From positions 1-47,808 of the IMG/VR virus record IMGVR_UViG_3300042453_003633: 47,808 nt of DNA, one strand, 5' to 3'. The first letter of the stretch is position 1. Each line of letters starts with the position of its first letter. This document shows, one piece after another, positions 2,505-39,421 of the stretch. The DNA comes from a virus. The translations under genes were made by a program, and so were the position numbers. The notes beneath the pieces were generated by a model, which was not told where the DNA came from, ran no database searches, and saw only the letters and a program-made list of their open reading frames with translations.

Positions 2505-2528
2505 TGGATGGTGTGGTTAAAAAGCTGG

Positions 2529-2552
2529 TCAGTTTAACGTCATGACCAGGAC
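2529..2552 (-). promoter_or_regulatory. Family B leader element, copy 1
   Basis: Read on the minus strand: stem CGTC, loop CTGGTCAT, stem GACG, then TTAAACTG. It lies between the stop at 2559 and the start at 2504. In this copy the loop can also pair with the GACCAG just downstream, which would make a pseudoknot. One of six copies; see findings. Confidence 0.7.
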
Positions 2553-2558
2553 GGAGAC

Positions 2559-6041: not shown

Positions 6042-6857
6042 TCAAAACGGTGCGTTGTCGTCATCTTTGGATGGGCTGCCGTATTGACCAGGGAGATCAG
6101 GCAGTCCGCTTTCACCATGACCCCAAGGATCAGGTTGTTCATCCATAGTGCGACCACCCCACAGTGAACCAACATTCCCTTCGGATGCAACAGTTGTTTG
6201 GGGCTGGATCGGAGCGGAACCATCGACTGCCTTGGGAGACAGCGTCATCTTCTTAAGTTCGATCTTAGTTTGTATTTTCTTTTCCCTTGAATCTTTATCG
6301 ATCCAGGAATCAGTAACCAGTCGACCCTTAATTGTTAAGCCCGTTCCTTTGCGGGTGAAGTTACACAGAAGTTCTGCGTAGTTAGGCTTATCTTCTGCGT
6401 TGTTAATTGCGTAGAAGTTAAAGAGATCAGATTGATTGCGACCAGTATTAACCGCAAGGGTTTGGTTGCAGATCATCAAACCACTTGGTGTGGTTTTAAA
6501 AGCACGTTCATCTTCGTGGTTGACATCTTTGACGCAACGTCCACTAAGGATGACAGTGTTAAGAATCGGAAATGTCTCTGCATTAACCATGCCAATGACA
6601 CCACCATGCAAAGAGAGTTGCCTGGTATCTAAGTCATAGCGGAGCGTGGAATCATGCAGGTAAATTCCCATGTTCTTTTTCATGCGAGCAAAACGTTCAG
6701 CCGTCTTGCCGTAGATGTTAAGTTCGATGGGAGTGTCTGCTTTCTTAGCGCCGACAGCCGGTAGGCTAATCATGCAGCGCATTGCAGTTGAGTTGGCGCC
6801 TGTAAAAACTTCCCGAGGATCTTCAAGAAGTTGAGCGCAACCAGCAAAGAAATTCAT
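6042..6857 (-). CDS. ssb: Single-stranded DNA-binding protein with two OB folds
   Basis: A 271-residue protein. Residues about 95-205 read as a typical SSB OB fold: NTVILSGRCVKDVNHEDERA, then TPSGLMICNQTLAVNTGRNQ, FYAINN, AELLCNFTRKGTGLTIKGRL, DSWIDKD. The N-terminal 90 residues (FFAGCAQLLEDPREVF ... IELNIYGKTAERFARMKKNM) look like a second OB fold. The C-terminus is Pro/Gly-rich and ends DDDNAPF, close to the DDDIPF tip with which bacterial SSBs recruit partners. Bacterial SSBs have one OB fold per chain, so a fused pair could halve the number of subunits needed. Upstream lies the polymerase, which fits a replication operon. Confidence 0.8.
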   Translation of the reverse strand: MNFFAGCAQLLEDPREVFTGANSTAMRCMISLPAVGAKKADTPIELNIYGKTAERFARMKKNMGIYLHDSTLRYDLDTRQLSLHGGVIGMVNAETFPILNTVILSGRCVKDVNHEDERAFKTTPSGLMICNQTLAVNTGRNQSDLFNFYAINNAEDKPNYAELLCNFTRKGTGLTIKGRLVTDSWIDKDSREKKIQTKIELKKMTLSPKAVDGSAPIQPQTTVASEGNVGSLWGGRTMDEQPDPWGHGESGLPDLPGQYGSPSKDDDNAPF

Positions 6858-6880
6858 TGCAAGAGAAGTAGGGTGGAAGG

Positions 6881-6904
6881 CAGTTTAACGTCATACCTGG
6901 GACG
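6881..6904 (-). promoter_or_regulatory. Family B leader element, copy 3
   Basis: Minus strand: CGTC, loop CCAGGTAT, GACG, TTAAACTG. It lies between the polymerase stop (6916) and the SSB start (6857). The loop differs at several bases from the CTGGG form while the stem is kept. Confidence 0.7.
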
Positions 6905-9013: not shown

Positions 9014-9775
9014 TTACTTTCGATTTGATTTGCCGTATCCCACAAAGTCACCATCTTTCTTGCGTTGAGACAACGCCTTGCTGGCTTCTGTACCAGCGCG
9101 TTGACTGCCATGTACCAGCAGTGCAAACGGCTTGTCGCCCAAGCAATGGCTATCGTCGTGATCGATTTCCAATCCCAGCTCAGTTGCCTGCTGTTCTGTG
9201 TAGACCACATAGGCAATGCGCTTGAACACCTTGGGGTGTTTGGGAATTAGGTAATCGAGCGTACCACCATGGGACGCAGTGAGATAGAAGTTAGGTGGAA
9301 TGATGTCGGCAAGGTTAAGCCACATGCCCAACGACTTGGTGTAGGCATAGAAGGTTTGGTTGGGCCGCTCGGTTGCAGCCATGAACCAAGCCTTCATGTA
9401 GTTCTCTGTCCAGAAATCACCAGACTCATGAACCCGCACCAATTGTTTGGGCGGCATCATGGTCAAGGACAGATCAATGAGGTCACGCAGCAGTGTGACT
9501 TGGTTGCCATTGGAATACAACGTTTCACGCAGCAAATCCCAGTTGTGCCAGCGTGCTTCCCTGACGTTGGGCCGCACTTCTGACATAGCTGCAAAGCAGC
9601 GGAACTCATCTGCTGTGGTACCAGTGGTCTGGGGCAGATCAGTGATGGTACCTGTGGCACGGTCAGCAAAGGTCTTGCAAACACCAGCGTGCGGGCAGGA
9701 GTAACCCGCTGGAAGCGAGAAGATCAAACGGTTCTTGAGCTTACCGTTACCGGTGGAAAACTTGAGGAGTTTCAT
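9014..9775 (-). CDS. GP88-like phage protein
   Basis: A 253-residue protein matching the phage 'gene product 88' family in its layout. The N-terminus reads LLKFSTGNGKLKNRLIFSLP, then AGYSCPHAGVCKTFAD with two Cys, a later FRCFAAMSEVRPNVREAR, and VRVHESGDFW and FYAYTKSLGMW blocks. The SCPxAxxC...RCFAA...P-VR spacing is diagnostic for the family. Its biochemical function is not established. The ATG at 9775 directly follows TCCACACCACACC, the CA-rich leader seen elsewhere, and was preferred over the frame's earlier opening at 9802. It is followed by a 63-base gap before the gene at 8950. Confidence 0.75.
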   Translation of the reverse strand: MKLLKFSTGNGKLKNRLIFSLPAGYSCPHAGVCKTFADRATGTITDLPQTTGTTADEFRCFAAMSEVRPNVREARWHNWDLLRETLYSNGNQVTLLRDLIDLSLTMMPPKQLVRVHESGDFWTENYMKAWFMAATERPNQTFYAYTKSLGMWLNLADIIPPNFYLTASHGGTLDYLIPKHPKVFKRIAYVVYTEQQATELGLEIDHDDSHCLGDKPFALLVHGSQRAGTEASKALSQRKKDGDFVGYGKSNRK

Positions 9776-9815
9776 GGTGTGGTGTGGATAAAAGATAAGC
9801 AAAGCTTATGGATGA

Positions 9816-9836
9816 GTTTAAGGACATCCCAGGTCC
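9816..9836 (-). promoter_or_regulatory. Family B leader element, copy 6 (compensatory stem)
   Basis: Minus strand: GGAC, loop CTGGGAT, GTCC, TTAAACTC. Both stem arms differ from the usual CGTC/GACG yet still pair, which is the strongest compensatory change in the family. It lies 46 bases upstream of the GP88-like start. Confidence 0.65.
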
Positions 9837-12285: not shown

Positions 12286-12361
12286 TGGTACCCGAGGTGA
12301 GATTCGAACTCACGCTGGAGCGATTTTAAGTCGCTTGCCTCTTCCGCTGGGCTACTCGGGC
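12286..12361 (-). tRNA. tRNA-Leu (anticodon UAA), short variable loop
   Basis: A 76-base cloverleaf read on the minus strand. Acceptor GCCCGAG pairs with CTCGGGU (first pair G-U). The anticodon stem AGCGA/UCGCU is perfect with loop CUUAAAA (anticodon UAA). The T arm is GUGAG-UUCGAAU-CUCAC. The discriminator is A, and CCA is encoded. The variable loop is only five bases, which is odd because bacterial tRNA-Leu normally has a long variable arm. The 5' ten bases overlap the 3' end of the upstream small gene. Confidence 0.85.
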
Positions 12362-12573
12362 GCACTTGGACTTACGCTTACATCAATGGATGCATGCTGC
12401 CAAGTGTGGTCATGGGGCAATGGCTCAGTGCCATATTCCCATGTGTCGTAGTCTTCTTCATTACGTGGATCGTCTTCGATCAGTACGTAATGCGGAGAGT
12501 TGTCATGAATGAAATCTCCGATGTTTGCCATAGCCATAGCCAGGAGTTGATCATCGGTGTAGTCGTGTTCCAT
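12352..12573 (-). CDS. Hypothetical protein, 73 aa, overlapping the tRNA
   Basis: MEHDYTDDQLLAMAMANIGD starts an acidic protein with a WEYGTEPLPHDHTWQ segment. The start at 12573 follows a hairpin and a CTTCACC leader. Its last codons run through family A element copy 1 and ten bases into the tRNA gene, so the 3' end may be trimmed off when the tRNA is processed. Not recognised. Confidence 0.55.
   Translation of the reverse strand: MEHDYTDDQLLAMAMANIGDFIHDNSPHYVLIEDDPRNEEDYDTWEYGTEPLPHDHTWQHASIDVSVSPSAPE
12363..12406 (-). promoter_or_regulatory. Family A structured element, copy 1
   Basis: Minus strand: outer stem CACTTGG/CCAAGTG enclosing CA, an inner hairpin CATC-CATT-GATG and GTAAGT. It abuts the tRNA 5' end and lies within the last codons of the 73-residue gene. 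Confidence 0.6.
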
Positions 12574-12580
12574 GGTGAAG

Positions 12581-12612
12581 GACCAGCCCTAGTATCGAGG
12601 CTAAGGCTGGTC
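12581..12612 (-). promoter_or_regulatory. Leader hairpin before the gene at 12573
   Basis: Minus strand: GACCAGCC and GGCTGGTC form an 8-bp stem around a 16-base loop, ending 7 bases before the ATG. There is no U-tract, so it is not a simple terminator. Confidence 0.55.
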
Positions 12613-12628
12613 AATTTGGCTTCGGCCT

Positions 12629-14335
12629 TTAAGAGGCTAGCTGTTCATTGCGGGTTTGCAATGCCTCATGGAACCCTTCGGTGTATTGGTCTCGCTGATC
12701 AGGCGTCAGGTTTTGATTAGATAAACCTTTGATTTGATCAACGGACATCATGCCACCGTCAACCTTGAGTTGAATGGTGAACCTGGGTTTACCTTCTACC
12801 ATACAAAGCACAATGAAGTGCTTCTTCTTACGAACACCTTCAGCGTAACCAGAGGCAGAGCCAACGCAATTGCGTACGGCTTGACCCCACATGGCGAGCT
12901 GATGCGTGTCGTGTGGCTGGAAGAACGACCAAGTTTCACCATCAACAGATACTTTGATGGGTTCAGGGAATAAATCCTGCGGTAGCTTTTCATTTGGATT
13001 TTGAATCTTCCATGACTCTGCCTGGACATGGTCATGGAATTCATTGATGCGCCAACGTTTGGGAGGATTTAGATCCTTGTGCTCAAGCACGCGGTTAAGC
13101 ATGTTGATTGTGTCTGACCATTCGTAGAATCCATAAACGTGTAGACCAAGGTCACGTTCCATGGTGACGTTAGAGCCATTAGCACGTACACGTTGCTGCT
13201 CTTCTTCATAGTATTTGGCAAAGATGCCAAAGAAAGAAGCAACAGGCATGTGTTGACGCAACCAATCAATAGTCTTGTCTTGCACGGCGTACGAACGAAT
13301 GCGTATGCCTAGCAATTCTTGAATGTGGTTTTGATAATAATCAATGGGACAATCAGGCCAGATGCCATGAACATAGCTAATGGAATCAACTAGTTTCTTA
13401 GCTTGATTAAAAGGTTGTTTGATGTTGACTTGTAGTTTGTTGTTCTTATCTTCATAGACAGCAATAGATTCATCTAGTTTTTGCTGGACCCACTTACGGA
13501 AGAATGGTGTATTAAAGATGTGTTTGACATTGCGTAGTGGCAGCCAATCAAGGTATGCAGGCGTTCTTAATTCAGTAAGTGAATAGAAGTTATCAACAGT
13601 TAGCTGCCAAGTTGATTGCTCTTCTTGACTTACAAAGACAGGAGGAATCTCAAGAGCTTGGGCAATGCCAGCACATTGAAGGCGGCTAAAAAGGAAACGG
13701 CTATCATCCCAGGTGGGAATTGATTCTTGCAAGGCTTTACTGAATTCTTCAACAGCCTTGGCAATGTTCCGTCCCTTTTGGGTATAACTACCAAGATAAC
13801 GAGCACGCCATTCACGATCTTCTTTGCCATCAATGATGTCTTGACGAGTTACAAGACGACGGTCAATGAAGAATGTTGAGCGGCCAATCTCAATCTTGTT
13901 GTAGTTATCAATGTTGTTGATGATATCGCGTGGAATTGTCTTACGTGCTGATGCAGTGTCACGGAAGACACGTGCATAGCCATAGACATACTTGTCTTCT
14001 TGGCCAGCTGGCGGCAGCCATCCGGCGTACCAACATTGTTCGAAGTGATAAAGGATTGCGCGTGTCTGGAGACGGGCCTGCGGAGTAGCAACATCCACAG
14101 GCTTGGTAAATGAGTGGTGACGATCTGGCGCAAGCTGCGTGTTAATCGAATCAATTGCATCTTGCTGCAGTGATTCACGCACCACGTCATAAGGAATGAC
14201 ATGCGGGATGTTGCCAAGGGGATACTTGGCTTTCTTGGCAGGAGATGATTGCTTTTGTTGGCGAACCAAAGCTTTGAGCTTGGGATCGTAGGCAATCAAC
14301 TCGGTCTGCAAGTTTTGAGGAAGTTGGAATTGCAT
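12629..14335 (-). CDS. PcfJ-like protein
   Basis: A 568-residue protein whose C-terminal 120 residues match the PcfJ-like family: HQLAMWGQAVRNCVGSASGY, then KKKHFIVLCMVEGKPRFTIQ, MMSVDQIKGLSNQ. The NCVG followed by a basic stretch, a beta hairpin and Q-x-G-x-x-N is the family hallmark. PcfJ is encoded on conjugative plasmids and in phages; its biochemical role is unclear. The N-terminal 400 residues are Gln- and Asn-rich and not recognised. The start ATG at 14335 follows GAACTCACC, and a family B element lies 40 bases upstream. Confidence 0.65.
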   Translation of the reverse strand: MQFQLPQNLQTELIAYDPKLKALVRQQKQSSPAKKAKYPLGNIPHVIPYDVVRESLQQDAIDSINTQLAPDRHHSFTKPVDVATPQARLQTRAILYHFEQCWYAGWLPPAGQEDKYVYGYARVFRDTASARKTIPRDIINNIDNYNKIEIGRSTFFIDRRLVTRQDIIDGKEDREWRARYLGSYTQKGRNIAKAVEEFSKALQESIPTWDDSRFLFSRLQCAGIAQALEIPPVFVSQEEQSTWQLTVDNFYSLTELRTPAYLDWLPLRNVKHIFNTPFFRKWVQQKLDESIAVYEDKNNKLQVNIKQPFNQAKKLVDSISYVHGIWPDCPIDYYQNHIQELLGIRIRSYAVQDKTIDWLRQHMPVASFFGIFAKYYEEEQQRVRANGSNVTMERDLGLHVYGFYEWSDTINMLNRVLEHKDLNPPKRWRINEFHDHVQAESWKIQNPNEKLPQDLFPEPIKVSVDGETWSFFQPHDTHQLAMWGQAVRNCVGSASGYAEGVRKKKHFIVLCMVEGKPRFTIQLKVDGGMMSVDQIKGLSNQNLTPDQRDQYTEGFHEALQTRNEQLAS

Positions 14336-14367
14336 GGTGAGTTCAGAGTAAGTTCGTAGTGTGTGAG

Positions 14368-14391
14368 CAGTTTAATGTCATGCTCAGGACA
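14368..14391 (-). promoter_or_regulatory. Family B leader element, copy 4 (compensatory pair)
   Basis: Minus strand: TGTC, loop CTGAGCAT, GACA, TTAAACTG. Relative to the other copies, the outermost C-G pair is replaced by T-A. Confidence 0.7.
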
Positions 14392-14396
14392 GGGGA

Positions 14397-14654
14397 TCAG
14401 TCTAGATCGTAATCGGAGGTGTCGACGAGTTGCCAGTGAAGATCGAGCTGATCAAGATAGCAGCAGAAGCCATCTTCATCAGTAGGGATTTGTTGTTCCT
14501 CATCCAGCTCAAAGCTTGCTGTGCAAAGAGCTGGAGCCCATTCTTCAGGTTCGAAATATGTTGCCCGATAGAGCAAACGCATTTCGTCAACCACTGCTGT
14601 AACTGTGACATTGGTACCTTCGATGATGGTGTCTTCAATAGCAAGGACAGACAT
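14397..14654 (-). CDS. Hypothetical protein, 85 aa
   Basis: MSVLAIEDTIIEGTNVTVTA starts a small acidic, beta-rich protein with a C-terminal DLHWQLVDTSDYDLD. The start at 14654 lies 3 bases after the upstream stop, so the pair is probably co-translated. Not recognised. The acidic Tyr/Asp end could be a DNA-mimic feature, but the length and charge alone do not show this. Confidence 0.55.
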   Translation of the reverse strand: MSVLAIEDTIIEGTNVTVTAVVDEMRLLYRATYFEPEEWAPALCTASFELDEEQQIPTDEDGFCCYLDQLDLHWQLVDTSDYDLD

Positions 14655-14657
14655 GAG

Positions 14658-14855
14658 TCAGACCTGAATGAATTGCTTGGGTTTCATGAAGTCAGATGTT
14701 GGTCCATACTTCTCGATAAGATCAGGGAATGCGTCGAGCAAACGCTGACGATTCACTGGATCTGCAACGCGCAGTGCTTGTGCAATCGATGAAACAAATG
14801 AACCACCATGTGATTGCATGAGGCAAATCATGGCGGTCAGCTGAGCTGAATTCAT
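14658..14855 (-). CDS. Hypothetical protein, 65 aa
   Basis: The ATG at 14855 (MNSAQLTAMICLMQSHGGSF) was chosen. The frame is open to an ATG at 14894, but that ATG is part of the family B hairpin, and the 13 extra residues are encoded by the conserved element and leader. The product is a short helical protein with VNRQRLLDAFPDLIEKYG. Not recognised. Confidence 0.5.
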   Translation of the reverse strand: MNSAQLTAMICLMQSHGGSFVSSIAQALRVADPVNRQRLLDAFPDLIEKYGPTSDFMKPKQFIQV

Positions 14856-14880
14856 GTGTTGAATTGCAATGGAATGTAGG

Positions 14881-14904
14881 CAGTTTAACGTCATACCCAG
14901 GACG
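14881..14904 (-). promoter_or_regulatory. Family B leader element, copy 5
   Basis: Minus strand: CGTC, loop CTGGGTAT, GACG, TTAAACTG, just after the stop at 14910 and 33 bases before the start at 14855. Confidence 0.7.
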
Positions 14905-14909
14905 TATCT

Positions 14910-15107
14910 TTAGAATAATTTAATGTTTCGTTTGCTCAATCCTGTGCCAGGAATTGAGAACGATCCAAGCAGTCCAGACGGACGTGCGTTGAGTGTGAAT
15001 TGGATGGGGCCAAGTCGTATCGATTTGGTGAACGACTTGATGCCCCGTTCCGTGATGTTGACTCCGGCAATAGTTTTGTCGAAGTTAAAGGCTGAGCGTT
15101 CAGTCAT
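14910..15107 (-). CDS. DUF4236-like small protein, 65 aa
   Basis: MTERSAFNFDKTIAGVNITE begins a beta-rich protein whose second half, LGPIQFTLNARPSGLLGSFS then IPGTGLSKR, resembles the end of DUF4236 proteins (Gly-rich strands followed by GIPGTGLSYR). Function unknown. It overlaps the upstream gene by 8 bases and ends a four-gene chain of coupled starts from 15670. Confidence 0.5.
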   Translation of the reverse strand: MTERSAFNFDKTIAGVNITERGIKSFTKSIRLGPIQFTLNARPSGLLGSFSIPGTGLSKRNIKLF

Positions 15108-15396
15108 AACAAGAATTGGATTCGGCCAATGTAAATCTCAATTGAAAGTATTCATCTTGATCTTTGTCTTTGGCGTAGTAACGGGCTTCAAATCCACCAG
15201 AGCCAACAACGTTGTTCTTGATGGATTCTCTTAGCAAATGGCGTGCCATTGCTTTAAGTCTTGCGATGGATGGAACTGCGTGCCCATTACCTTCAGTTGT
15301 TTGCCACTGCCAGTCAACCGCTGTCATAGCAATGTAAACACGTTGAAAATCAAACGTGTCAATTACGTTATCAATCAATGATTCTTTTGAGTCCAT
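15100..15396 (-). CDS. Hypothetical protein, 98 aa
   Basis: The ATG at 15396 shares a base with the stop of the 23-residue peptide upstream (TAATG). The product has an aromatic VYIAMTAVDWQWQTTEGNGH segment, a helix LKAMARHLLRESI and a beta-rich FEARYYAKDKDQDEYFQLRF end. The pattern resembles small phage proteins of unknown function; I cannot name a family. Confidence 0.6.
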   Translation of the reverse strand: MDSKESLIDNVIDTFDFQRVYIAMTAVDWQWQTTEGNGHAVPSIARLKAMARHLLRESIKNNVVGSGGFEARYYAKDKDQDEYFQLRFTLAESNSCYD

Positions 15397-15467
15397 TAGT
15401 TGTAGATCATGTCGAGGGACAAAATGATTGCACTAAGGAATAACATGGAGCAGAGAAGGATCATCAT
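15396..15467 (-). CDS. Single-helix membrane peptide, 23 aa
   Basis: A 24-codon frame (MMILLCSMLFLSAIILSLDM start) that is almost entirely one hydrophobic helix. It starts in an ATGA overlap with the upstream stop and ends in a TAATG overlap with the downstream start. The exact linking of both neighbours makes it more likely real than chance. Confidence 0.45.
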   Translation of the reverse strand: MMILLCSMLFLSAIILSLDMIYN

Positions 15468-15670
15468 TTGAGGTCATCAGGAAGGAGCATTTGAGTGTCT
15501 TCGTCAGACATGTTGGTCATCATGAACTTCTCTCCGTTGGGTGAAATGAAACCACCAACGAAACCAACTCCGTACTTGTCAGCTGATTCCTTCATCTTTG
15601 CTACGAGTTGCATAGCGGATAGACGTTGGAGATCAATGGAGTCTGGGATGCGGGGAGTGTTGTCAGGCAT
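15464..15670 (-). CDS. Hypothetical protein, 68 aa
   Basis: First gene of a coupled four-gene chain (15670 to 14910). The product contains AMQLVAKMKESADKYGVGFV and GGFISPNGEKFMMTNMSDED, suggesting a small alpha/beta protein. The start at 15670 follows CACTTCATTCCA, without a purine-rich ribosome site. An extended stem-loop lies 31 bases upstream. Not recognised. Confidence 0.55.
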   Translation of the reverse strand: MPDNTPRIPDSIDLQRLSAMQLVAKMKESADKYGVGFVGGFISPNGEKFMMTNMSDEDTQMLLPDDLK

Positions 15671-15701
15671 TGGAATGAAGTGGAATGATTGATGGAGTGT
15701 A

Positions 15702-15770
15702 GCAGGGAATAGGGGGAGTAAACATTAGTTTATCTAATAGAATTAATGGTTCCCCCCTGGTACTCCCTGC
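15702..15770 (-). promoter_or_regulatory. Extended stem-loop leader before the gene at 15670
   Basis: Arms GCAGGGA and TCCCTGC enclose a run of five G opposite a run of C, and an inner ATTAG-TTTAT-CTAAT hairpin. It is about 69 bases long in all and fills the gap between 15670 and 15785. No U-tract follows. Confidence 0.5.
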
Positions 15771-15784
15771 GGGGTTGTAGGGGT

Positions 15785-16042
15785 TCAGCTGTGCATAGCT
15801 TGATGTTCTTTCCATGCATTGGTATGCATTTCATCCAAAGTCAAAGGCGGTTCATTGACTTCGTCTGGATCAAAGTCAGCATCAAGGTAATTCACAAGCA
15901 TTGGAATGATTTCCTCTTCGAGTAAGCAATAGATGGACGGAGTGAGATGCTGGTCCATCTGATGCCGCTTCGCTTCACGTGCCATGACATCTTGGAGGAT
16001 AGTCAATGCTTGACGCACGTGGACATACTCGTTTTGTTCCAT
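15785..16042 (-). CDS. Hypothetical protein, 85 aa
   Basis: MEQNEYVHVRQALTILQDVM opens a helical protein with an acidic C-terminal half (YLDADFDPDEVNEPPLTLDE). The start at 16042 directly follows CACACCACACC, and family A copy 2 lies 26 bases further upstream. Not recognised. Confidence 0.6.
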   Translation of the reverse strand: MEQNEYVHVRQALTILQDVMAREAKRHQMDQHLTPSIYCLLEEEIIPMLVNYLDADFDPDEVNEPPLTLDEMHTNAWKEHQAMHS

Positions 16043-16068
16043 GGTGTGGTGTGTAGGTTGAATGGGAT

Positions 16069-16123
16069 GACCTGGGACTTACACCATTATTGAGAAGAGT
16101 TCTCAATTGTGGATGCCCAGGTC
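16069..16123 (-). promoter_or_regulatory. Family A structured element, copy 2
   Basis: Minus strand: outer 8-bp stem GACCTGGG/CCCAGGTC, then CA, inner 8-bp hairpin ATTGAGAA-CTC-TTCTCAAT, then GTAAGT before the closing arm. It ends 26 bases before the start at 16042. Confidence 0.75.
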
Positions 16124-16143
16124 TTGTTGTGTTGCCAGAGAAA

Positions 16144-16386
16144 TCATCTGGGATCAAGGATGATCCAGCCCGTGTAGTTATCGCTGGTGCGATCCACACG
16201 AATTAAGCGTTTCTCTTCGAGGCTTTCAATGGTGCGTATGTAATCAGCCATTCGATTTCCTTGGACCGGAATCTTTGGTACGAAACATGGAGTGTTCGCA
16301 TGTTTCCTCCTGTGATTTAAGTAATACAGATAGAGATTCCGTTGGTTAATACTCAGGCTGAGTGGTGCTGAGTTGTCGATTTGCAT
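16144..16386 (-). CDS. Probable winged-helix DNA-binding protein, 80 aa
   Basis: An 80-residue protein with LSINQRNLYLYYLNHRRKHA, a helix MADYIRTIESLEEKRLIRVD and a wing-like SDNYTGWIILDPR end. The order helix, helix, 'L-x-x-L-E-x-K-x-L-I', beta hairpin is typical of winged-helix repressors. The ATG at 16386 overlaps the upstream stop as TAATG. A transcriptional role is inference from fold pattern only. Confidence 0.5.
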   Translation of the reverse strand: MQIDNSAPLSLSINQRNLYLYYLNHRRKHANTPCFVPKIPVQGNRMADYIRTIESLEEKRLIRVDRTSDNYTGWIILDPR

Positions 16387-16721
16387 TAGATCAATCCAAG
16401 AAGACTAAGCCAACTATCGGGATGGTCCGGTTCTACTTCGTCGTCGTCCGGTGTGAACGCGACTGAGTCGAACGACCACTCTTCGATTTCCTCGTTGGTC
16501 GGGACATCGTACCAGCCTTGGAGTTCTTTGTCGGCGTACCGTGGGATCCAGTAGCACCGGAGGATGCCTCGCTTGTTGCGATAGACATCGCCGTTGCTTG
16601 GACGTTCGCCTTTCTCTCCGTCGTAGTTGACTTCGGCTTGGTACTGTTGGTCGAGGTCTTCTTCTGAGAAGGGGACGTAGCCGAAAGATTCGGCAATTTC
16701 TTGGGTGACGGGGTGAAGCAT
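16386..16721 (-). CDS. Hypothetical acidic protein, 111 aa
   Basis: MLHPVTQEIAESFGYVPFSE begins a strongly acidic protein with a GERPSNGDVYRNKRGILRCY segment and an acidic C-terminus (VAFTPDDDEVEPDHPDSW). Locally GC is higher than in neighbours. It is co-translated with the winged-helix gene (TAATG). A second open frame with a membrane segment overlaps its 5' region. Not recognised. Confidence 0.6.
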   Translation of the reverse strand: MLHPVTQEIAESFGYVPFSEEDLDQQYQAEVNYDGEKGERPSNGDVYRNKRGILRCYWIPRYADKELQGWYDVPTNEEIEEWSFDSVAFTPDDDEVEPDHPDSWLSLLGLI

Positions 16722-16810
16722 GAGATTAGTACCGTGATGAGGATTGAGATGAGTGCGATGACATGAATAATGATGTCATCTTCTTGAGGACTAGGAGTCT
16801 TCGTCGTCAT
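16433..16810 (-). CDS. Possible overlapping membrane-protein frame, 125 aa
   Basis: In another frame, an ATG at 16810 opens MTTKTPSPQEDDIIIHVIAL followed by ISILITVLISCF, a clean membrane helix that lies just before the start of the 111-residue gene. The rest of the frame is Ser/Thr/Lys-rich and overlaps that gene for about 290 bases, so only the first 35 codons look selected. It may be a real overlapping gene, or a small gene whose stop codon was lost, or chance. Confidence 0.3.
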   Translation of the reverse strand: MTTKTPSPQEDDIIIHVIALISILITVLISCFTPSPKKLPNLSATSPSQKKTSTNSTKPKSTTTERKANVQATAMSIATSEASSGATGSHGTPTKNSKAGTMSRPTRKSKSGRSTQSRSHRTTTK

Positions 16811-16928
16811 AGATGACGCCCTCCCACTCATCTTGATTGGATTCTGTCATTGCTTGATATTGTTCTTCTGCCATGTCAGCCATGGCATCAAGCAAGTCAG
16901 CGTTGTAGTTGTTGTCGAGTTGAGTCAT
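16791..16928 (-). CDS. Small acidic protein, 45 aa
   Basis: MTQLDNNYNADLLDAMADMA starts a 45-residue, very acidic helical peptide ending VIYDDEDS. The start at 16928 follows TTCAAACC and lies 26 bases after family A copy 3, the usual arrangement for leftward transcription-unit heads. This placement is the main evidence. Not recognised. Confidence 0.5.
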   Translation of the reverse strand: MTQLDNNYNADLLDAMADMAEEQYQAMTESNQDEWEGVIYDDEDS

Positions 16929-16954
16929 GGTTTGAATTGGTATAATGAATTGAA

Positions 16955-16999
16955 AGCCTGGGACTTACGCACCGAGCTGGCGTCGGTACTGCCCAGGCT
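16955..16999 (-). promoter_or_regulatory. Family A structured element, copy 3
   Basis: Minus strand: outer 8-bp stem AGCCTGGG/CCCAGGCT enclosing CA, inner hairpin CCGA-(7)-TCGG and GTAAGT. It lies 26 bases before the start at 16928. Confidence 0.75.
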
Positions 17000-17031
17000 A
17001 TTTGTAGTACTGACGTACTAACGGACGTGGG

Positions 17032-17451
17032 TCAAACCTTGACGTGAGACCAAGCTTTGCCCTTGTGGATATTGGAGATGGTGTGTTGGCTAACGCCGTA
17101 CGCCTTACCGATCTCGATGTACGCACGATTGGTGCTCTTGAATTCCTTCATGATTGAAGGCGTTGCAAGGACACCTTTGATCTCGCGGACATCGCTCTCG
17201 CTGAGCTTGGCATTGCAGAAGGCAGCTGGCTTAATTCTCCCGGAGAATTCGCCGCTTGTGATCTTCTTAACCAATGCCATCTCACCGTCCTGCTGGAGAG
17301 CAGGCCGAGGCGTGGTATTGAGAACCTGACGGATGGGTAGACCAAGAGTCACAGAAGTTCCGTCTTTTATGACGGAGATCGTGACCTTGCCTTCTCGGGT
17401 GATAACCGAGACGTGATCAGGGTTCTGGATGTCGAGTTGACTGATGGCTTC
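17032..17451 (-). CDS. Helix-turn-helix DNA-binding protein
   Basis: A 139-residue protein; the ATG at 17451 (MEAISQLDIQNPDHVSVITR) was preferred to a GTG at 17529. The C-terminal region KLSESDVREIKGVL ... IEIGKAYGVSQHTISNIHKG then KAWSHVKV is the same HTH type as at the end of the zinc-ribbon protein at 11151 (AISAKYGISVSYISRI... KAWTHI). The N-terminal 60 residues are beta-rich (VSVITREGKVTISVIKDGTS). A phage transcription regulator is likely; no endonuclease motif is seen. Confidence 0.65.
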   Translation of the reverse strand, partial: EAISQLDIQNPDHVSVITREGKVTISVIKDGTSVTLGLPIRQVLNTTPRPALQQDGEMALVKKITSGEFSGRIKPAAFCNAKLSESDVREIKGVLATPSIMKEFKSTNRAYIEIGKAYGVSQHTISNIHKGKAWSHVKV

Positions 17452-17510
17452 CATGAGTTGAGTGGAGTGCAGTACGAGGATAGCTGGATGATTACTGGAT
17501 GCAAGTACTA

Positions 17511-17575
17511 GGTCTAGTCCACAGCACACTCTCCCACGCCACCGGTAGTGGCGCAGGGGGGAGTGGGGACTGACC
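17511..17575 (-). promoter_or_regulatory. Extended stem-loop leader before the gene at 17451
   Basis: Three stacked stems: GGTC(T)AGTCC/GGACTGACC, CACTCTCCC/GGGGGAGTG (with mismatches) and CGCCAC/GTGGCG around CGGTA. The 65-base structure fills nearly the whole upper part of the leader and directly follows the stop at 17578. Confidence 0.6.
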
Positions 17576-17577
17576 TT

Positions 17578-17934
17578 CTACCTCATGTAGAGGTAAGAGC
17601 CTGCCCAATCAGCATTGTGGAGACAAGCTTCGTAGGAGGCGTCATCCAGTAGTTGGTAGCGGACGTGAAGAGCTGGTGCCTTCCAGCTGGCGGGCTTATA
17701 GACTGCACCTGTCTCACGTGAGACAAATGCATGTACAGATCGCCCGACACGTCCGGCACCAGAATTTGTGACTTGAATGATCTTGTAATACTTGGTACCA
17801 CGAACAATCTCGTGGTTCAAGTAGTCAGGATATTCTTCACGTTGTGGATACTGCTTGTAGTAACGCTTGGTTAGTACATCGATAACGGCATTGATGCGAT
17901 CTTCGATGAGCTGCGTTTTCTCAGCGAGTTTCAT
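17578..17934 (-). CDS. Conserved phage-type protein, 118 aa
   Basis: The ATG at 17934 (MKLAEKTQLIEDRINAVIDV) overlaps the upstream stop by 14 bases. The second half, YYKIIQVTNSGAGRVGRSVH then AFVSRETGAVYKPASWKAPA, matches a pattern I recognise in many phage proteins of unknown function: K-x-x-K-V ... S-V-H/W-x-F-V-x-x-x-T-G-x-x-x-K-x-x-x-W-K-x-P-A. The biochemical role is unknown. Confidence 0.6.
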   Translation of the reverse strand: MKLAEKTQLIEDRINAVIDVLTKRYYKQYPQREEYPDYLNHEIVRGTKYYKIIQVTNSGAGRVGRSVHAFVSRETGAVYKPASWKAPALHVRYQLLDDASYEACLHNADWAGSYLYMR

Positions 17935-18115
17935 GTTGAGTTTGCTGTGAGTGGATCTTGGTGATGTCGACGCCCAGTGCACCGCCAATCGTTAGTGCCA
18001 TTACTGCAATAGCAAAGACACCAACGAGGAAGTTGGCTATGGGCATCTCATTTCGAGAACCATAAGAATCAAGTTGAACATACTGATTCTTGCCAAGTGA
18101 GACAATGCGTTTCAT
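17921..18115 (-). CDS. Small membrane protein, 64 aa
   Basis: MKRIVSLGKNQYVQLDSYGS is followed by a hydrophobic segment PIANFLVGVFAIAVMALTIG and a polar His/Gln/Thr tail. One membrane helix is predicted by eye. The ATG at 18115 was chosen because the upstream open part (to 18172) lies in the leader's two-hairpin element. Not recognised. Confidence 0.55.
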   Translation of the reverse strand: MKRIVSLGKNQYVQLDSYGSRNEMPIANFLVGVFAIAVMALTIGGALGVDITKIHSQQTQHETR

Positions 18116-18140
18116 TAGAATAAGAATGAAGTGAACAGAG

Positions 18141-18204
18141 GCAGTCCTGGGTGAGGACTGCAGAAAACCCACCGCCGATACGAATTCGTATCAACGGAAG
18201 GGTT
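18141..18204 (-). promoter_or_regulatory. Two-hairpin leader element, copy 1
   Basis: Hairpin 1: GCAGTCC-TGGGTGA-GGACTGC (18141-18161). Hairpin 2: AACCC...GGGTT (18166-18204) enclosing the perfect palindrome GATACGAATTCGTATC (18177-18192). The related element at 18629 has the same order and the same GGGTTT(T/C)CTGCAG junction on the minus strand. Confidence 0.6.
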
Positions 18205-18215
18205 AAGTGCAGTCG

Positions 18216-18605
18216 TCAGAAAGGAATTTCTTCCAGCGTCGGCTCAACCTTGGATTCAGCCACTGGTGTGACTGCAGGCTTAGCCTCCGGTGATGCACCG
18301 ATGACAGCACGGACTCGCGTCAGTGCAATCTCTGGATATTTGAGGGCTACCAGCTGGTCATCTTTGACGTAATGCGTGCGAATACTGGCGATCCGCACAT
18401 CATACTGGACAAGGATCAGCTGCTGACCAACCACCAACGTACCGTTGTTGTAGGCAGTAAGTAGCCCGTTGCCATTGTTGAATTTGATGCGGCAGACACC
18501 ATCGAACTGGTCCTTGACATACATGGTGATCGCAAGGAACTCGCGACCTTCATGCACAGCAGTTTCCATGTAAGCAATGTTGCCGATGATTGTGTTGCTA
18601 AACAT
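18216..18605 (-). CDS. Second SSB-like OB-fold protein, 129 aa
   Basis: MFSNTIIGNIAYMETAVHEG then REFLAITMYVKDQFDGVCRI, IKFNNGNGLLTAYNNGTLVV and GQQLILVQYDVRIASIRTHY look like successive strands of an OB fold. The C-terminal 30 residues are Pro/Ala/Glu-rich and end in PTLEEIPF, matching the acidic D/E-D-I-P-F tip of SSB proteins. It is half the length of the SSB at 6042 and far from it, so the phage seems to carry two SSB-type proteins. DNA binding itself is inference. Confidence 0.55.
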   Translation of the reverse strand: MFSNTIIGNIAYMETAVHEGREFLAITMYVKDQFDGVCRIKFNNGNGLLTAYNNGTLVVGQQLILVQYDVRIASIRTHYVKDDQLVALKYPEIALTRVRAVIGASPEAKPAVTPVAESKVEPTLEEIPF

Positions 18606-18628
18606 AATCAATGTGAAGTAAGGGACTA

Positions 18629-18671
18629 GCAGGAATGAATCCTGCAGGAAACCCTGGTGTTACTCAGGGTT
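18629..18671 (-). promoter_or_regulatory. Two-hairpin leader element, copy 2
   Basis: Hairpin 1: GCAGGA-ATGAA-TCCTGC (18629-18645). Hairpin 2: AACCCTG-GTGTTACT-CAGGGTT (18650-18671). It lies 23 bases upstream of the start at 18605. Confidence 0.65.
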
Positions 18672-18682
18672 AATTGCAAGAA

Positions 18683-18871
18683 TCAGTTGTTAGCAAGCTG
18701 TGTATACAACTTGCGGGCACCAGCGAGTGAGAGGCTGGTGCTTTGGTCGTAACCTTTGTGACCCTTGCGGATCAACTTGGTTACATGCGCCACATTTCCC
18801 TCCGTATACACGAAGAAGAAATAGATGGCTTGGTCCGTTTCAACTGCCAGGGTCTTATCAGGGTTAGACAT
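18683..18871 (-). CDS. Hypothetical protein, 62 aa
   Basis: The ATG at 18871 directly follows CAACACCACACC. The product MSNPDKTLAVETDQAIYFFF then VYTEGNVAHVTKLIRKGHKG is a short beta-rich protein with a helical end LAGARKLYTQLANN. Not recognised. Confidence 0.6.
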   Translation of the reverse strand: MSNPDKTLAVETDQAIYFFFVYTEGNVAHVTKLIRKGHKGYDQSTSLSLAGARKLYTQLANN

Positions 18872-18892
18872 GGTGTGGTGTTGAATGTGCCG

Positions 18893-18941
18893 TGCCCATC
18901 TCGGCGTTGGGCAATGGCTGGACCAGGGATTGCACCTGGTC
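18893..18941 (-). promoter_or_regulatory. Two leader hairpins before the gene at 18871
   Basis: Minus strand, in order: GACCAGG-TGCAATC-CCTGGTC (18921-18941) and TGCCC...GGGCA (18893-18913, in plus-strand order). The first looks like a tRNA T arm, but the surroundings do not fold as a tRNA. Confidence 0.5.
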
Positions 18942-18949
18942 ACTCGCTT

Positions 18950-19114
18950 CTACGAATCAGCTGTTGTCATGGGTAATTCACCAGTTGGTTCAATCGCCTT
19001 GGCGATCTGCACCCTGGTATTACGTATCCACATCTGAATACGTTCTTTGCTCTGGTCTTCTGCTACTACCTTGGCAGCAGCGATCAGACCAGTTGCTAGC
19101 TTGGCTCGTAACAT
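18950..19114 (-). CDS. Small helical protein, 54 aa
   Basis: MLRAKLATGLIAAAKVVAED begins a 54-residue helical, amphipathic protein. Unlike most leftward genes it has an AGGAG ribosome site, and it lies 29 bases after family A copy 4. It is the first gene of the leftward block after the control gap. Not recognised. Confidence 0.55.
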   Translation of the reverse strand: MLRAKLATGLIAAAKVVAEDQSKERIQMWIRNTRVQIAKAIEPTGELPMTTADS

Positions 19115-19143
19115 TGTGAACTCCTGGTTAAATCAATTGAATT

Positions 19144-19178
19144 GTTTGGACTTACCCGCGCTGTGCGCGGTGCCAAAT
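19144..19178 (-). promoter_or_regulatory. Family A structured element, copy 4 (minimal form)
   Basis: Minus strand: TTTGG, CA, hairpin CCGCGC-ACA-GCGCGG, GTAAGT, CCAAA. This is the most compact copy, and it defines the conserved core: CA before and GTAAGT after the inner hairpin, both enclosed by the outer stem. Confidence 0.75.
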
Positions 19179-38046: not shown

Positions 38047-38508
38047 GTGCGGCTCTCTGACTTCGACAAAAGTAGAGTCAGGTATCACCTGGGGTATTTC
38101 ACGGTTTCTGTTCCTGCGGGTGATTACGCTCGTCTAGAAGAAGCAATGAATACCGTCCCGGATTCATACTTCTATGACAAAATCACAATCCAGATCGGTC
38201 GTTGCGATACCGCTGAAAAGAAAACAGAAGTTGCAACTTCTCCTTCGACGCGGTTAGAAAGCATTGCCGGTGACGTGGATCGTACGATTCGCTCCAGCAA
38301 CGCCAAGGAAGCACTGAAGGTTTGGGACGAGATTTATCTCTACGAAACAAATCGTCTTGCTGGTATTCTTTACGTTCCCAACTACAAGGATCCTTTCCAG
38401 GCTCGTTATCGTTACGAACGTTCTGGTGCTGAATTTATTCAAGCACTTCCAGGCCCCGCTGATACTGCTGTGGGCTCCCGTATTTATCTACATGAGGTTT
38501 GGCGCTGA
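38047..38508 (+). CDS. Hypothetical head/tail-joining candidate, 153 aa
   Basis: GTG start with an AAGGAG site and a TATAATTAA box 22 bases upstream. The product has GYFTVSVPAGDYARLEEAMN, a central SPSTRLESIAGDVDRTIRSS and a C-terminal YVPNYKDPFQARYRYERSGA. Length and place would suit an adaptor, but no motif confirms it. It overlaps the next gene by one base (TGATG). Confidence 0.5.
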   Translation: MRLSDFDKSRVRYHLGYFTVSVPAGDYARLEEAMNTVPDSYFYDKITIQIGRCDTAEKKTEVATSPSTRLESIAGDVDRTIRSSNAKEALKVWDEIYLYETNRLAGILYVPNYKDPFQARYRYERSGAEFIQALPGPADTAVGSRIYLHEVWR

Positions 38509-39335
38509 TGTTTTTACTAAATAAAATTCTTCCTCCGCCTCTAACAAATCCCTTTTTCCCAAGCCCTGGTGCGGCGTTGGATGCCGTTACTGCCCCAGTG
38601 CGGAATGTGCATGGTATACCTGGCAGTTATGAATTTGTTGAGCAGGCGTTACGCAGTTTAATCGGTGGTAAAGCACCTCAAAGTAAACGAGCAATGGCAG
38701 AGGATGCCGCAAAGACTGGAATGTGGGGTAAATATGGTGCAGAAAAAGAACCCTTCAAGGTTCCTTCTATGGGAGAATCAGGGCTTAGCAATACGGCTTT
38801 AAGCAGTGCATCTGCGCCGAACGAACGCGCTTATCTGGAAGAAAAGCGTCGTGCTACCCAGTTAGCAGAACAAGATCAACTCTCTAAAAAATATAAGGTT
38901 GCTGATTTAACAAAGGCTTATAACACTGCCGCCACTCCCGAAGAAAAAGAAAAGATCGGCCTGCAGATTTGGGCCACAACAAATCCTCGTTTGGCAGAAA
39001 GACTGAAGCCGGGTCAACTTGGCTATACAGAAGCACAAACTGCAATCCAGGCTCAAAGTCCACTAGGCGCTTTTACACAAGCGACAGGCGATATGCAGTA
39101 TGCCGAGAAAATGAATTTTGGCTTGGCTTCTCCCACCGGAGCACCAGCATTTAATTTAAAGACTCCGCTCAGCGGTGTTCCTGTGCCGCCGGTTGATCAA
39201 GTTGGCATCTCAGAAGCATTTACGAAGGGTGCTGTTCCTGTTACCGATGCGTTTAAAGCCGGAGCATTTAAGCCTGATCTAAGCCAGACACAGCTGGCGC
39301 TATTAAAACAAGCTTTTGAGCGTGGGTTAAAATAA
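38508..39335 (+). CDS. Hypothetical virion-block protein, 275 aa
   Basis: The ATG at 38508 is used (MFLLNKILPPPLTNPFFPSP). The rest is helical and polar (EEKRRATQLAEQDQLSKKYK, ADLTKAYNTAATPEEKEKIG, LQIWATTNPRLAERLKPGQL) with a Pro-rich middle and a helical C-terminus PDLSQTQLALLKQAFERGLK. It precedes the lysin gene. Not recognised. Confidence 0.55.
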   Translation: MFLLNKILPPPLTNPFFPSPGAALDAVTAPVRNVHGIPGSYEFVEQALRSLIGGKAPQSKRAMAEDAAKTGMWGKYGAEKEPFKVPSMGESGLSNTALSSASAPNERAYLEEKRRATQLAEQDQLSKKYKVADLTKAYNTAATPEEKEKIGLQIWATTNPRLAERLKPGQLGYTEAQTAIQAQSPLGAFTQATGDMQYAEKMNFGLASPTGAPAFNLKTPLSGVPVPPVDQVGISEAFTKGAVPVTDAFKAGAFKPDLSQTQLALLKQAFERGLK

Positions 39336-39370: not shown

Positions 39371-39404
39371 ACTGGACACAGATCTTTGATCTACGGGGGC
39401 CAGT
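39371..39404 (+). promoter_or_regulatory. Intergenic hairpin
   Basis: ACTGG...CCAGT encloses an inner AGATC-TTT-GATCT stem. It lies in the 216-base gap between 39335 and 39552; nothing else but the small frame at 39422 was seen there. Confidence 0.4.
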
Positions 39405-39421
39405 GTTGTTGCATTAATCCA

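Follow-up and report, generated by a model that had tools for sequence, protein, structure and literature searches.

A structured RNA element, here termed family A, recurs in a 47,808-nucleotide (nt) stretch of viral DNA (IMG/VR record IMGVR_UViG_3300042453_003633, positions 1 to 47,808; hereafter the window), and sequence comparison indicates that it almost certainly constitutes a functional RNA family absent from Rfam. Its role can be assigned only tentatively: it may be a new structured RNA that acts in cis on polycistronic phage transcripts, as a boundary or processing signal. The consensus, CUKGG-CA-[hairpin]-RUAAGY-CCMAG, combines an outer stem (CUKGG/CCMAG) and a variable inner hairpin around a single asymmetric internal loop (C-A against R-U-A-A-G-Y), with a motif size of about 24-55 nt. 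A second fold, family B, occupies an equivalent position ahead of orthologous genes. Among cultured phages, Synechococcus phage S-EIVl is the nearest, with 69% identity in the DNA polymerase and 45% in the 568-amino-acid (aa) PcfJ-like protein. The family A copies of the window, with the open reading frames (ORFs) or tRNA gene that follow them, are:

12363..12406, (-): family A copy 1, separated by 1 nt from the tRNA-Leu(UAA) gene downstream; covariance model 36.4 bits
16069..16123, (-): family A copy 2, 26 nt to the AUG of ORF 15785-16042; 37.2 bits
16955..16999, (-): family A copy 3, 26 nt to the AUG of ORF 16791-16928; 41.6 bits
19145..19177, (-): family A copy 4, 30 nt to the AUG of ORF 18950-19114; 41.4 bits
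39340..39367, (+): probable weak fifth family A copy, with a 4-base-pair (bp) outer stem and a GTAAGC linker; relaxed search

The four minus-strand copies listed in the initial annotation were all recovered, one of them with its limits corrected from 19144-19178 to 19145-19177. The pattern GGCA N{9,39} GTAAGTCC matched the window four times against 0.11 expected, and none of 100 shuffles reached four. The outer stems pair perfectly over 7, 8, 8 and 5 bp, as annotated, and the minimum-free-energy folds of all four copies reproduce the proposed outer stem and inner hairpin (folding z-scores of -3.1, -5.2, -3.5 and -2.8). The inner hairpins do differ between copies, and two are imperfect, with an A.A mismatch in the 12363 copy and an internal loop in the 16069 copy. 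The original list overlooked the fifth copy on the plus strand, which is absent from the covariance-model hit list and was found by relaxed search, 4 nt past the stop codon of ORF 38499-39335 in a rightward gene block. It was accepted as family A because relatives carry counterparts ahead of the same downstream sequence: stronger versions stand before that sequence in three related contigs and before a similar one in L362. A conserved hairpin (ACTGGACAC...CCAGTGTTGTTGC) was also observed after the late-region copy and upstream of an endolysin-like gene, in the window (about 39371-39412, +) and in L359, L360 and L361.

Across relatives, the paired arms vary together while the core is retained. 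In an alignment of 30 diverse copies, 86.8% of cells pair and covariation reached 0.62, compared to 0.16 in shuffled and at most 0.15 in slid alignments (0 of 500 shuffles), and in an alignment of 111 distinct rows it was 0.44 against 0.13 shuffled, which strongly supports the view that the element is a functional RNA. The covariance model retrieved 125 copies in 35 sources (the window, S-EIVl and 33 related viral loci); many further copies with compensatory stems are present in related phages. GGC, UAAG and CC were invariant in all 111 rows; a G preceded UAAG in 100, a U followed it in 103, and an A followed GGC in 91. In the CA...GTAAGT core first described, CA is not invariant and GTAAGT is more accurately RUAAGY. 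The first inner pair was mostly U.U, the remaining rows having mainly G-C or C-G. A chance origin was excluded by the shuffles, the reversed-sequence and reversed-pattern controls and the alignment covariation.

A mobile repeat or recombination site acting at the DNA level would account for the same element standing at different genes in different phages. This is nevertheless the least probable of the explanations considered, as all 125 model hits lie on the transcribed (gene) strand at closely fixed distances from gene ends, the bases of the internal loop stay unpaired, and copies of one genome have only the core in common. An integron attC site was also considered and appears unlikely, the internal loop not being self-complementary.

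Searches with Rfam 15 returned tRNA as the sole match at the gathering threshold in the window, none at E<=10 over the element region, and nothing over the elements of 25 other loci that carry relatives. A known Rfam family was accordingly rejected, and the original remark that the motif belongs to no recognised class holds as far as Rfam 15 extends. The initial annotation was thus borne out on both points that could have refuted it, an Rfam match and a lack of further copies with compensatory stems in related phages. The element was not found described in the literature searched. The segment GGG..UAAGUCCC, present in all family A copies, resembles the 16S rRNA hairpin GGGUUAAGUCCC; this likeness could be coincidence or mimicry.

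Relatives of the PcfJ-like protein are encoded in 41 IMG/VR loci, in which a simple scan detected 83 family A copies against 1 in reversed sequence. A stringent pattern (CCTGGGCA..GTAAGTCCCAGG) matched 88 viral stretches (reversed control, 1); in 257 Gb of genomes from bacteria and archaea it matched twice. These two were taken as chance because the first such genome had no model match, and a bacterial chromosomal element was rejected on this basis, the genome scan having covered the stringent form only. S-EIVl-like genomes contain several family A copies each and S-EIVl itself one; the S-EIVl stretch examined holds this A copy (AUAAGU linker) and two B copies. Unrelated phages carry single family A copies. 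The pattern TGGGCATCC-N-GGTGTAAGTCCCA matched 107 stretches, many on contigs without proteins related to the S-EIVl lineage. Pattern matches with poor inner hairpins on contigs unrelated to S-EIVl (e.g. L154) may be due to chance and were excluded as support. Phages related to Synechococcus phage S-CBWM1 (portal 65% identical) have the element ahead of the major capsid gene, while the cultured S-CBWM1 itself has no copy, and no element was detected at E<=0.01 in the cultured cyanophages B23, P-SSP7, S-PM2, Syn5, S-CBS2, S-CBWM1 and S-TIM5. In another unrelated group, it lies between a phrog_4652-like gene (resemblance by eye) and a GC-rich repeat region. BLAST searches of named phages with two element-leader queries and three long stretches returned no useful match.

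Long GC-rich stretches with GGC-spaced repeats and recurring hairpins (CACAGACGGTGGCACGGAGG...CCTCCCTGCCA) were observed directly 3' of the element in L266, L270, L273, L281, L286 and L312, and are apparently non-coding.

The features downstream of the four minus-strand copies, with the occurrence of either element in each ortholog family, are:

12286..12361, (-): tRNA-Leu(UAA), Rfam tRNA match
15785..16042, (-): ORF that follows copy 2; 23 A + 1 B among 32 orthologs
16791..16928, (-): small ORF that follows copy 3; 17 A + 6 B among 29
18950..19114, (-): ORF that follows copy 4; 5 A among 19

Copy 2 begins 20 nt past the stop codon of ORF 16144-16386. The initial annotation had placed three copies 26-29 bases before a start codon, where 26, 26 and 30 nt were measured from the stem end, and had correctly noted that one copy abuts the tRNA, 1 nt separating the two. 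In S-EIVl-like phages, 87 of 120 copies are located 18-33 nt ahead of an AUG (mode 29-31 nt from the end of CCMAG), and a stop codon occurs within 30 nt upstream in 64 of 120, most commonly 4 nt before CUKGG. The same offset recurs in unrelated phages, where the stop codon lies exactly 5 nt before TGGGC in 23 of 50 copies and 4-8 nt before it in 32 of 50, counts that are not independent because several copies share one homologous site. Family A copies end 1-2 nt before 25 of 30 tRNA-Leu(UAA) genes, the tRNA-adjacent copy of the window thus recurring in most related contigs, and an element lies 6 nt upstream of tRNA-Asn in L261, L294 and L314, which are unrelated phages. The element occurs in both early and late gene blocks; some copies precede GC-rich stretches without evident gene, and others stand about 50 nt ahead of capsid genes with a GGAG-type site. 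This stop-codon geometry, the presence in unrelated phages and the replacing second fold go beyond the initial annotation, which proposed no mechanism. Stop-codon read-through was examined and rejected: the in-frame extension had a median of 27.5 codons and exceeded 60 codons in 19 of 64 cases, with nothing consistent, and the linker UAA was the next in-frame stop in merely 11 of 64.

In L019 (11986-12463) and L033 (11965-12442), the tRNA-adjacent copy is followed by a sequence resembling the 5' half of a tRNA, a 128-aa ORF (MKLYGPYTRKDGR...) and a complete tRNA-Leu; the ORF looks like a mobile one inserted at the tRNA gene.

The positions at tRNAs and stop codons, the occurrence in early as well as late blocks and the spread to unrelated phages speak for a general signal of boundaries or processing rather than for a switch of particular genes, as does the fact that one position serves many unrelated genes. 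Gene-specific regulation was rejected, since the element precedes many unrelated families and orthologs may have it or lack it. A ribozyme that cleaves itself, separating transcription units without protein, would likewise explain the placement before tRNAs, in gaps and in unrelated phages; no Rfam 15 ribozyme family matches the motif, however, and this explanation appears very improbable.

Control of translation is a weaker candidate than a boundary signal, though not a negligible one. An element about 30 nt before the AUG could recruit the ribosome or a translation factor to leaders without a Shine-Dalgarno sequence, or keep the leader unstructured. The narrow distance to the AUG agrees with this, and leaders behind A or B contain 5-6% G, with a Shine-Dalgarno-like sequence in 5 of 93 A genes and 0 of 79 B genes compared to 9 of 23 late genes. 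Other early genes, however, are also G-poor in their leaders without having the element, copies precede GC-rich stretches and capsid genes with their own GGAG-type site, and an invariant core would be superfluous for a mere insulator. Moreover, the element adjoins a tRNA in two unrelated phage groups, where a signal for translation only would not be expected.

Two other kinds of leader hairpin were observed in the window. Unlike the spaced elements, a strong 12-bp hairpin at 12580-12616 (-) reaches to within about 7 nt of the AUG at 12573 and could occlude the start region. At 18142-18200 and 18632-18690 (-), AACCC..GGGTT hairpins are followed by a GCAG..CTGC hairpin, with start codons about 23-27 nt further on; these possibly represent a third leader type.

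Family B (CGUC-C-UGRGYA-U-GACG-UUAAAC-UGCYCA) is a covarying H-type pseudoknot with the 6-nt linker UUAAAC between its two helices. Its five window copies, 19-34 nt ahead of start codons, have no match in Rfam:

14364..14391, (-): family B, 28 nt before the AUG of the PcfJ-like ORF 12629-14335
14877..14904, (-): family B; the AUG at 14855 follows after 21 nt
9810..9836, (-): family B variant; the AUG of the GP88-like ORF 9014-9775 follows after 34 nt
6877..6904, (-): family B; the AUG of the SSB gene 6042-6857 follows after about 20 nt
2526..2553, (-): family B; an AUG at 2504 follows after 21 nt

A loose rule, which admits a few chance matches, found family B 115 times along the gene strand and once along the opposite one. 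In a 20-copy alignment, 99% of cells pair, a percentage that leans towards structure because the rows were chosen for fitting the rule, and covariation was 0.55 against 0.24; the exchanges in both helices are independent of the choice of rows. Family B also occurs on a few contigs unrelated to S-EIVl (L325, L326, L341). Families A and B replace each other in six ortholog families, including those of the PcfJ-like gene, which has B rather than A in most phages (3 A + 27 B of 34), the SSB gene (1 A + 20 B of 23 contigs) and ORF 16791-16928. Their linkers, RUAAGY and UUAAAC, share N-U-A-A-R-Y; in each fold, the 6 nt run from the 3' strand of a helix to that of the stem, and the two linkers may be equivalent in space.

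The exchange of two compact folds with invariant unpaired cores at orthologous genes could point to two riboswitch classes for one ligand, small H-type pseudoknots being common among riboswitches. This seems quite unlikely: the start region lies outside the fold, no expression platform or terminator was visible in leader folds inspected by eye without a systematic search, and the many unrelated genes, the tRNAs and the several copies per genome would be atypical.

The SSB gene carries B or A in a larger share of contigs (21 of 23) than other large gene families, and the elements might accordingly be operators of a phage RNA-binding repressor, for example SSB, that nucleates on B or A, spreads over the leader and blocks the AUG. 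In phage T4, gp32 acts in this way on the gene 32 mRNA, whose operator comprises a pseudoknot of about 28 nt and, on its 3' side, a region of less structure that contains UUAAA elements (PMC535899). Family B resembles this T4/RB69 operator as a 28-nt H-type pseudoknot with UUAAA-type sequence, followed by an unstructured leader ahead of the SSB gene, an arrangement found for B in 20 of 23 contigs but not for A, which is not a pseudoknot. The comparison is limited in that UUAAAC lies inside the family B pseudoknot and not in the leader, and B precedes many genes. The window SSB protein is of the OB-fold type (Pfam PF00436, above cut-off) with no match to the gp32 family, and SSB operators would hardly be expected next to tRNAs, ahead of capsid genes or in the late region, where copies also stand. 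Such autoregulation is thus doubtful, and somewhat less probable than translation control.

A reading of both families as one such signal is proposed with slightly more reserve than the boundary or processing mechanism itself: despite their different folds, A and B may present the same helix / UAA-linker / helix surface to a single trans-acting factor, at boundaries of mRNAs and tRNAs and in unrelated lineages. The factor would most likely cut in or near the 6-nt linker, or shield the resulting ends. Upstream mRNAs would thereby end in a hairpin, and downstream units would begin with a short unstructured leader of about 35 nt for mRNAs and less than 15 nt for tRNAs. Certain copies have an outer stem of 5-6 bp and an inner stem of 3 bp, which may or may not amount to the roughly one full turn of near-continuous duplex of an RNase III site. 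Several points weigh against this proposal. No nuclease emerged as a candidate. Inner hairpins of 3 bp are poor classical RNase III substrates, and RNase III sites do not show so invariant a core. RNase P normally trims the tRNAs of bacteria unaided, and a translation signal would agree just as well with the constant distance to the AUG among S-EIVl-like phages.

Family A is a well-supported RNA family, multicopy in S-EIVl-like cyanophages and single-copy in unrelated phages, and appears to be a new class of signal at the boundaries of phage genes. It may give access to how phages with early genes lacking a Shine-Dalgarno sequence organise their transcripts, and two folds swapping at one gene position allow a direct test of convergent recognition. 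As S-EIVl carries both A and B copies, the question is testable in culture.

Structured RNAs of the 5'-untranslated region have been described in cyanophages and metagenomes, namely manA, wcaG and PhotoRC-II (Weinberg et al. 2010, PMC2864571). Family A is likewise a structured cyanophage RNA but has no Rfam match to manA (RF01745), wcaG (RF01761) or PhotoRC-II (RF01717), and, whereas these are tied to metabolic or photosystem genes, it is not gene-specific. RegB of phage T4 cleaves within translation initiation regions and is inhibited by RNA secondary structure (PMC3014915). Its sites, like family A, mark phage early mRNAs for a post-transcriptional event near start regions, whereas family A is a stable structure upstream of the initiation regions.

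The RNase III sites of phage T7 share with family A a stem with an internal loop, a location in the gaps of polycistronic RNA, many copies per genome and a position ahead of start codons. Family A differs from them by its invariant internal-loop core, very short upper stems, pseudoknot substitute and tRNA neighbours. In T7, RNase III processing sites lie between genes, and the logic proposed for family A, with its putative cleavage, would be comparable to that of these intergenic sites.

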